Positions 2,552 through 4,289 of a DNA stretch of 35,354 nt are shown piece by piece. The stretch is from Flavobacteriales bacterium (GTDB taxonomy: Bacteria > Bacteroidota > Bacteroidia > UBA10329). Every line of letters begins with the position of its first letter. Within the stretch, counting starts at the first letter, position 1. Under the pieces are notes generated by a model, which ran no database searches, was not told the DNA's origin, and saw nothing but the letters and a program-made list of their open reading frames with translations. The stretch is from assembly GCA_021739625.1 (NCBI GenBank), contig JAIPBJ010000026.1:1-35354 (forward strand), given 5' to 3'. The position numbers and the translations under genes are program-made.

Positions 2552-2585
2552 AAAGCCCCTGCCGCCATAAGCGGACAGGGGCTTT
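2552..2585. terminator. Bidirectional intrinsic terminator
   Basis: A 10-bp perfect stem, AAAGCCCCTG/CAGGGGCTTT, continues as CCGC/GCGG with one bulged A and a five-base loop. It lies between the convergent MBL hydrolase and the GldL/GldM-like gene and can serve both strands. The T-tracts are short (three bases). Confidence 0.8.
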
Positions 2586-2595
2586 GTCCTCGGCC

Positions 2596-3858
2596 TCAAC
2601 TTGGCGGGTTCGAGACCTCGGGCTGACTTAACAGATGGACAAGTGCCTGATTTTCGGCCTGCCTAATGTCGTTCTGAAGTTTTGAAAGGTAGGATATCAC
2701 GCCAACCAGTGGCACATGGTAGAAGTGGTAGTGGGCCCAGTCCTGCTGATTGCCTTGCTTCTCATACGGCCTGCCAAGGTCGTAGGGGAAGGTGGCCGCC
2801 ATGCGCGCCTGCATGTGGGGCGGATAGGTGGCCAGCACCGTCTGCCGCAGACCCTCCAGTTCCTTCACCAGCTGCGTGTGGTCAAACCGGCCCGGTGCCT
2901 CGGGGTGGAACATGAGATGTGTGGTAATATCGAAATTGGCCTTGTTCTTCATCTGCGCCAAAGGCAGCGTGCGCGCCTCGGCCTCGGTCACATCCTCGGT
3001 CTCGAACACGATGGTGGCCTTGAGGTCGTCTATGTAGTCATACACCGCATCGGTGCGCTCCTTCAGCACCTGTGCCGAGGCGTTGCTCCCCAGGTCGGCA
3101 TACAGCAACTGATTGGTGGATGCGGCCGATGCCGATGCCCGCAGTTCATCATCGATCATCGTTGACCCCAGCTCATAGTTGAGGCTCGGGTTGATGCGCG
3201 CCAAGGCGAACACGAGGATAAGGCAGGTCATGGCCACCATGGATGTGGAGAGCGTCACCGGCCTATTGACCGATGTGTGGTACTGCTTATAGAAGTAGAT
3301 GGGCACGTAGAGGAAGGCCAGCACCGCCATGCCCCCAAGCAGTATCGCCCCGGCACCGGGCCAGTGCATCACCTTGAAGAGCACCCCGAGCACCGAGAAG
3401 CTGAGACCCACCCAGCCCGATATGTGCATGATGTACTCGTTGCTGGGCGATTCCTTCAGTTTGTAGTGAAGGATCAGCGGTAGATAGGCAAGCACCAGCA
3501 GCCCTGCACCAAGGACTATCATGATGCTGGCCCCCGGCCAATGCATGAGTTTGAAAATCGTCCCCGCCAAGAGAAGAAATGTGGAAGTCAGCCCGAAAGT
3601 GAATGTTACCTTTTTCATGGTTGCATTTATTTCGGTTAGTAATTGGAAAGTGTCCTGTTGAACCTGCATCAGACCCCCCGGACCAAAGAGCCTGACTGTA
3701 TGTAGAAAAGCGTCCTCAAACGAGTCGCCTTGACGCATTCTGTTCTCAATGCCTGTGCAGATGTGGTCGAGCAGGTCGTCATGCAGCCCATCATATGCCA
3801 CCCCGTTCTGACGGATGTAGGCACTCACCAGTTCCATCTGTGTTTCGTTCAGTTCCAT
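2596..3858 (-). CDS. Five-TM membrane protein: PadR-associated N-terminus, GldL-like repeats, GldM-like C-terminus
   Basis: A 420-residue inner-membrane protein with a mosaic layout. Residues 1-70 are helical (DLLDHICTGIENRMRQG...EDAF...LFGP) and resemble the small domains on membrane partners of PadR repressors. Two helical hairpins follow (about 84-131 and 147-190). In each, the first helix ends in the signature of the gliding/T9SS motor protein GldL: IFKLMHWPGA (101-110) and LFKVMHWPGA (160-169). A fifth helix (204-221) leads into a region like the N-terminal helical domain of GldM: LKERTDAVYDYIDDLK (265-280) and WAHYHFYHVPLVGVISYLSKLQND (374-397). The helix after the first MHWPGA lacks the intramembrane glutamate of true GldL. 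The gene overlaps padR by 10 nt, so the two are cotranscribed and translationally coupled. The role is unknown. The GldL/GldM relationship was recognised by eye and needs a profile search. Confidence 0.8.
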   Translation of the reverse strand: MELNETQMELVSAYIRQNGVAYDGLHDDLLDHICTGIENRMRQGDSFEDAFLHTVRLFGPGGLMQVQQDTFQLLTEINATMKKVTFTFGLTSTFLLLAGTIFKLMHWPGASIMIVLGAGLLVLAYLPLILHYKLKESPSNEYIMHISGWVGLSFSVLGVLFKVMHWPGAGAILLGGMAVLAFLYVPIYFYKQYHTSVNRPVTLSTSMVAMTCLILVFALARINPSLNYELGSTMIDDELRASASAASTNQLLYADLGSNASAQVLKERTDAVYDYIDDLKATIVFETEDVTEAEARTLPLAQMKNKANFDITTHLMFHPEAPGRFDHTQLVKELEGLRQTVLATYPPHMQARMAATFPYDLGRPYEKQGNQQDWAHYHFYHVPLVGVISYLSKLQNDIRQAENQALVHLLSQPEVSNPPS

Positions 3859-4202
3859 GACAGTTGCGGTTGCGGGGTGAAAGAGTGGAGAAGGTCGTTC
3901 ATGGTCTGCGAGAAGCTGCGGAACTCCCGCACCTTCTCACTTGCTTGGGCATTGCCCTCATCTGTGAGCTTGTAATACTTGCGCACCCGCTTGCCTATGT
4001 TCTCATGCTCAGTGGCGAGCAGGCCATCGGCCTCCAGCTTGTGCAGCGTGGGGTAGAGCGCTCCTTCTGTGAGTTGGATCTTGCCTGCGGTGCGCTCCTT
4101 CACGTGCTGGGTGATCTCATATCCATACATCCTTCCCCGCTCGGCCAGCAGGCTGAGCACTATGGTCTGAAGGGTTCCTTTGACAAGCTCTTGTGGAAAC
4201 AT
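3849..4202 (-). CDS. PadR-family transcriptional repressor
   Basis: A 117-residue winged helix-turn-helix regulator. The PadR pattern is clear: KGTLQTIVLSLLAERGRMYGYEI (residues 8-30), then LTEGALYPTLHKLEADGLLATEHEN (residues 44-68) as recognition helix and start of the wing, and RKYYKLTDEGN (74-84). PadR proteins act as dimers and usually repress a neighbouring membrane-protein gene and themselves. That fits the 10-nt overlap with the downstream GldL/GldM-like gene. The -7 element TAAGTTTG lies only four bases upstream of the ATG, so the mRNA is probably leaderless or nearly so, and a near-perfect palindrome overlaps it. Family assignment is secure; the ligand and target are inferred. Confidence 0.95.
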   Translation of the reverse strand: MFPQELVKGTLQTIVLSLLAERGRMYGYEITQHVKERTAGKIQLTEGALYPTLHKLEADGLLATEHENIGKRVRKYYKLTDEGNAQASEKVREFRSFSQTMNDLLHSFTPQPQLSWN

Positions 4203-4206
4203 GCTG

Positions 4207-4225
4207 CAAACTTATGCATTAGTTT
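4207..4225 (-). promoter_or_regulatory. padR promoter (-7 TAAGTTTG) overlapped by an 18-bp palindromic operator candidate
   Basis: On the minus strand TAAGTTTG (4207-4214) matches TAnnTTTG. The 18-bp sequence 4208-4225 is a dyad, AAACT-T-ATGCAT-T-AGTTT, with 16 of 18 positions symmetric and its centre at ATG|CAT. The overlap of a dyad with the promoter of a PadR gene suggests autorepression. The dyad is seen directly; binding is inferred. Confidence 0.6.
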
Positions 4226-4258
4226 CTTATGTATTGATATCTTGGGTAAAAAATTTCT

Positions 4259-4289
4259 AAAAAAAAACGGAGGCAAGGCCTCCGTTTTT
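4259..4289. terminator. Intrinsic terminator of the lon-rdgB operon
   Basis: Stem CGGAGGC/GCCTCCG (4268-4274 and 4278-4284) with a three-base loop, extended by an A-tract pairing with a T-tract. Read on the minus strand it is followed by nine T residues, ideal for ending lon-rdgB transcription before the padR promoter. Confidence 0.9.

Follow-up and report, generated by a model that had tools for sequence, protein, structure and literature searches.

In Listeria, the PadR-type regulator LltR is encoded beside a DUF1700 membrane protein, and both LltR and LstR have their own operon as main target (PMC6624303). In the vsr1-ORF551 operon of Elizabethkingia, a PspC-type membrane protein is expressed more strongly when padR is mutated, and the mutation is associated with drug tolerance (PMC10812688). 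The motor proteins GldL and GldM assemble as a 5:2 complex (PMC9389320), and glutamate E49 of GldL is reported to be strictly conserved and essential (PMC8986121). The SiaA protein of Pseudomonas is a PP2C-type membrane phosphatase which acts on SiaC (PMC7647112).

The locus described here lies in a window of 35,354 nt, the whole stretch of DNA analyzed, from a Flavobacteriales genome. It combines a gene for a PadR-type repressor (PF03551, 77 bits against a cut-off of 27) with a gene for a 420-aa membrane protein in which GldL-like and GldM-like parts follow one another, the two reading frames overlapping by 10 nt (Table 1). This domain make-up and the linkage to PadR are nearly certain. In the literature searched, which included few subscription papers, no publication joins GldL, GldM and PadR, or GldM and SpoIIE, and a GldL-GldM module with PadR is previously undescribed there. 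The upstream neighbor of padR is a Ham1-family gene, and a gene on the opposite strand (1704-2543, +) is convergent with the membrane-protein gene. Due to this convergent gene and an inverted repeat on one side, and a hairpin followed by a T run on the other, padR and the membrane-protein gene probably form a two-gene operon, which probably ends at the inverted repeat; a terminator scan covering the T-run hairpin performed overall no better than on shuffled sequences. The convergent gene encodes an MBL-fold protein whose nearest NCBIfam model is a YtnP-type lactonase (180 bits against a cut-off of 425). The only other padR found in this genome by a PF03551 search lies on contig C101 (L002:1396-1776) and has beside it a PspC-like gene from position 1784 onward, a locus similar to the vsr1-ORF551 operon with its link to drug tolerance.

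Table 1. Coordinates of genes, protein parts and predicted regulatory elements in the window.
Feature	Position	Strand	Evidence or remark
padR, PadR-type winged-helix repressor, 117 aa	3849..4202	-	Pfam PF03551, 77 bits, E 1.1e-21
GldL-GldM-like membrane protein, 420 aa	2596..3858	-	ORF coordinates confirmed
Cytoplasmic HAAS/permease-prefix-like helical domain, residues 1-80	3619..3858	-	predicted PadR contact
GldL-type hairpin 1, FKLMHWPGA, residues 84-136	3451..3609	-	second GldL_N stretch
GldL-type hairpin 2, FKVMHWPGA, residues 143-192	3283..3432	-	GldL_N 153-189; 7sau_C profile match
Fifth membrane helix, equivalent to the GldM helix, residues 201-222	3193..3258	-	profile alignment to 7sau_A
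Periplasmic domain, similar to GldM domain 1, residues 226-414	2617..3183	-	Pfam GldM_1st; VIA
Predicted PadR operator, 21-bp palindrome ATACATAAGAAACTAATGCAT	4214..4234	-	overlaps padR promoter
Candidate -7 promoter box TAAGTTTG	4207..4214	-	4 nt before padR ATG
Terminator-like hairpin in the gap between the Ham1-family gene and padR	4263..4289		hairpin and T run seen directly
Inverted repeat AAAGCCCCTG...CAGGGGCTTT between the convergent genes	2552..2585		read from sequence

The initial annotation had proposed that GldL-like and GldM-like parts are fused in one chain, and this is borne out by Pfam, by profile comparison with the PDB, by Foldseek and by VIA. Pfam GldL_N (PF22827) matches in two stretches (44.8 bits, E 1.4e-11, cut-off 24) and the HWPG hairpin is present, while GldM_1st (PF12081) covers residues 246-411 (85.5 bits, E 6.4e-24, cut-off 25); both also match in all nine close family members. 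The equivalog cut-offs are not reached for either GldL (TIGR03513, 25 bits vs. 68.3) or GldM (TIGR03517, 57 bits vs. 180), and the chain stops after GldM domain 1, domains 2-4 being absent. A profile of the family retrieves the GldM structure 7sau_A (2.3e-10), membrane helix included, in an alignment starting at profile position 208 within that helix, as well as the GldL chain 7sau_C (3.4e-5). Likewise, the alignment of canonical GldMs to the module begins at position 127 of the latter, which corresponds to the fifth membrane helix, and the order and topology of the parts are those of GldL followed by GldM. The AlphaFold model of the protein has a mean pLDDT of 71, with about 80-93 for the greater part of the periplasmic region. 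The first 16 PDB structures matched to it by Foldseek are all GldM or PorM, to which VIA aligns the model with Z-scores of 15-19 (best match 7cmg_A, Z 19.4, rmsd 2.3 over 175 residues), the next unrelated fold reaching 8.1. By fold, the clear match is to GldM/PorM alone.

Helical bundles yield chance matches and half of the wider family members fall below Pfam GldM_1st, as would be expected if the likeness were a general helix or coiled-coil similarity without homology. Such an explanation is barely credible in view of the Pfam E-value, the distance between Z 19.4 and 8.1, a W..F...PL motif conserved in the module alignment and a module profile which finds canonical GldMs at 1e-30 and better; it was rejected on the Pfam, PDB profile, Foldseek and VIA matches to GldM and GldL. 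Among the GldM sequence patches singled out earlier, it is the whole domain that is diagnostic, while the short DYIDDLK by itself is also carried by an unrelated Lachnospiraceae ORF.

The earlier remark that no gld operon lies nearby holds, as canonical gldL and gldM are found together on another contig (C146). Given these genes and a second GldM encoded on contig C125, the GldL-GldM-like gene represents an extra copy. This second GldM is full-length (C125:36538-37119), and the GldL profile has no match on contig C125. The same genome also encodes a 194-aa membrane protein (contig C178, L008:937-1521) whose single GldL-like hairpin carries QNWPGA and for which no partner is known. Comparison of the fused protein with a relative (L017) gives a dN of 0.28 and a dS of 1.9 (saturated), consistent with purifying selection, and identities of 75% in the N-terminal domain, 73% in the hairpins and 50% in the periplasmic part. 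That the N-terminal domain and hairpins evolve more slowly than the periplasmic part is what a receptor built around a conserved core should show.

In total, 70 distinct family members were assembled from the class Bacteroidia. A padR gene lies within 90 nt in 63 of these, placing a stand-alone PadR next to the membrane protein, and up to 1.5 kb away, on the same strand, in four further members; no padR was seen in the fetched DNA of three, one of which starts 36 nt into its locus. Among the wider members, GldL_N is matched in 69 of 70 and GldM_1st in 35 of 70 at E ≤ 0.1. As there are also members of only 206-259 aa without a periplasmic domain, the GldM part appears to be absent or unrecognizable in some versions. 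At E 1e-6, the N-terminal profile has some match in 199 of 395 Bacteroidia genomes, hairpin-only proteins included, and the full protein occurs in seven of nine genomes of the window's own order. Among 296 genomes drawn from the phylum, matches were confined to members of the class. A comparison of family and T9SS presence was uninformative, as GldM_1st occurs in 377 of the 395 class genomes.

The arrangement of hairpin, helix and periplasmic domain, with the order and topology of GldL plus GldM, could also be read as a single-chain, ion-driven GldLM motor. However, the residues equivalent to E49, the conserved glutamate in TMH2 of GldL, are L121 in hairpin 1 and L180 in hairpin 2; the GldL encoded in this genome does carry a glutamate there, 15 residues past the motif histidine. 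The initial annotation had noted the missing coupling glutamate after the first MHWPGA; it is lacking from the second hairpin as well, and the position is acidic in none of the 70 members, in either hairpin, being mostly L, F or I. Near-invariant in the 70 members are instead the lysine before the motif, the histidine, the tryptophan and, 21 residues further along, a proline. Two hairpins per chain, or three as in two of the relatives (L113 and L018), would give a 4:2 or 6:2 stoichiometry and not the 5:2 of GldLM. Finally, GldM domains 2-4, which reach the outer ring, are missing. The absent glutamate and the number of hairpins therefore led to the rejection of a fused motor, which is in our view highly improbable; judged by its sequence, the membrane protein is very likely not a motor. 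The earlier suggestion of a regulator or sensor rather than a motor hence holds as far as sequence can test it, the regulator or sensor role being one that we infer.

The N-terminal domain had been called typical of PadR partners, a designation which profiles support weakly. On the one hand, the NCBIfam model perm_prefix_1 (“permease prefix domain 1”) matches 24 of the 70 members, with a best value of 2.3e-5, below the cut-off. On the other hand, Pfam HAAS_TM (PF08006) is unmatched in this genome and does not exceed its cut-off in any of 148 genomes. The model of the domain (pLDDT 74) shows three helices, then a long helix running into the first membrane helix, and a fold search with it returned no useful structural match. 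In place, size and partner, the domain is like the HAAS domain of PadR partners (PMC11237479). It can therefore be considered HAAS-like in its putative role, not a proven member of HAAS. The N-domain profile also matches the start of reading frames of about 900 aa, perhaps permeases, at G161:C9:474708 and G216:C1:441804. In two further loci, three-gene operons begin with padR and end with the hairpin protein (L091:3726-4589, L087:3866-4726); their middle gene encodes an N-domain protein that seems to have a single membrane helix and ends in a different C-terminal domain.

Upstream of padR, the pattern ATACATAAGNNNCTTATGTAT is found with at most three mismatches in 57 of 64 upstream regions of relatives (0.08% in shuffles), where it overlaps or abuts TAnnTTTG, the -7 promoter box of Bacteroidota. 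In 37 of the 64 relatives (0.8 in shuffles), and likewise in the window, the distance from the end of this box to the padR ATG is exactly 4 nt, a spacing which suggests a leaderless padR transcript. A scan for sigma70-type promoters was no better than shuffles. Of the 37 palindrome sites in 39 relatives, 34 lie at a padR promoter, while the reversed-pattern control yielded 11 sites, and the main target of PadR therefore seems to be its own operon. Self-regulation of PadR via the predicted palindrome operator is likely on these sequence patterns. PadR regulators can control other genes, and a consensus scan would miss degenerate sites, so that the protein may be an ordinary PadR controlling a wide regulon, for which the membrane protein would be merely the switch. 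Yet the window's operator is the sole match at three or fewer mismatches in the 3.69-Mb genome, and in relatives, sites away from the padR locus are no more numerous than in the control. A wide regulon is therefore unlikely, and it was set aside for want of further sites in this genome.

A search with the module only, that is, the hairpins and the GldM part, revealed further arrangements. In six proteins (L116-L119, L190, and L191; the latter two at L190:2911-5184 and L191:1168-3408), the module leads into an additional membrane helix, after which comes a SpoIIE-type phosphatase domain with intact conserved motifs. At L190, two siaC genes precede the module-SpoIIE gene; L192 has separate, adjacent genes for a hairpin protein and a SpoIIE protein; and at L084, a hairpin-SpoIIE gene lies divergently beside a PadR-linked gene. 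The module also occurs alone (L120, L181-L185), and GldM domain 2 is retained in one protein (L115). An unrooted tree of the helix and domain 1 places canonical GldMs and modules on two sides (support 0.695). The recurrence of the module with unrelated outputs is the best reason for calling it sensory, and on the best reading of these sequences the GldL-GldM part would be a reusable sensory module, related to the T9SS motor, with PadR or phosphatase outputs. A broader proposal, to which we give somewhat less than even credence, is that GldL-GldM-type parts serve as a general signal input of Bacteroidia to PadR or SpoIIE/SiaC, with the T9SS motor as a sister branch, and that what the sensors report may be the condition of the motor or of the proton gradient.

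Taken together, we lean towards the view that padR and the membrane protein constitute an autoregulated membrane sensor-repressor pair. PadR would bind the palindrome and repress its own operon, while the cytoplasmic N-terminal domain would hold or release PadR, as proposed for HAAS-PadR dyads. The hairpins and GldM part would sense the state of the inner membrane or periplasm and pass the signal inward; this signal may come from the T9SS motor, from the proton gradient or from envelope stress. Upon such a signal, the operon would be derepressed and more membrane protein made. In this scheme, our best guess is that the membrane protein is a sensor acting on PadR through its N-terminal domain.

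The chief rival to the sensor reading follows from the same own-operon control, as the operator is found almost solely at its own promoter: the membrane protein may be an effector and not mainly a sensor, repressed by PadR until stress occurs, whereupon its overproduction would protect the envelope or, through mixing with GldL or GldM, adjust the T9SS motor. Precedents exist in vsr1-ORF551 of Elizabethkingia (PMC10812688) and in the LltR operons (PMC6624303), and the GldL-like and GldM-like faces could bind real motor parts. Conversely, the fusion of the same module across the membrane to SpoIIE phosphatases fits a sensor better, and the gene is not co-located with gld genes in this genome. 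An effector role thus appears rather unlikely, though less so than a wide PadR regulon.

If sensors of this type do monitor the T9SS or the proton gradient, secretion and gliding would be linked to gene control in a large class. The core of a rotary secretion motor is suggested to share ancestry with widespread membrane sensors, and the family offers a route to the question of the origin of the GldLM motor as well as a small and clean PadR circuit whose predicted operator is identifiable.

Compared to GldL/PorL and GldM/PorM, the membrane protein shares the HWPG hairpin, the GldM helix, periplasmic domain 1, and their order and topology, but differs in its single chain, its two hairpins, the lack of E49 and of GldM domains 2-4, and the lack of a gld operon nearby. 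Like the SiaA-SiaC switch, relatives that contain the module have a SpoIIE/PP2C-type phosphatase behind an additional membrane helix (PMC7647112); however, their sensor part is GldL-GldM-like, and the phosphatase output is absent from the window's gene. With vsr1-ORF551, the locus has in common a padR overlapping a membrane-protein gene, a Bacteroidota host and PadR as operon repressor, whereas ORF551 has a PspC domain and resembles the second padR locus on contig C101 instead (PMC10812688). There is also a likeness to the HAAS-PadR dyads, including LltR-lmo0600, where a stand-alone PadR is likewise encoded beside a protein that has several membrane helices and a helical domain at its N-terminus, and the promoter arrangement suggests control of the own operon (PMC6624303; PMC11237479). 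In contrast to these dyads, the N-terminal domain here is unmatched by Pfam HAAS_TM. The fusions named in the accessible part of the work on HAAS are to PspC, LiaI-LiaF-TM, Toastrack, FtsX, FtsW/RodA and VanZ (PMC11237479), in place of which GldL-GldM is found here. The pair is best read as a HAAS-PadR-like dyad with a new sensor.
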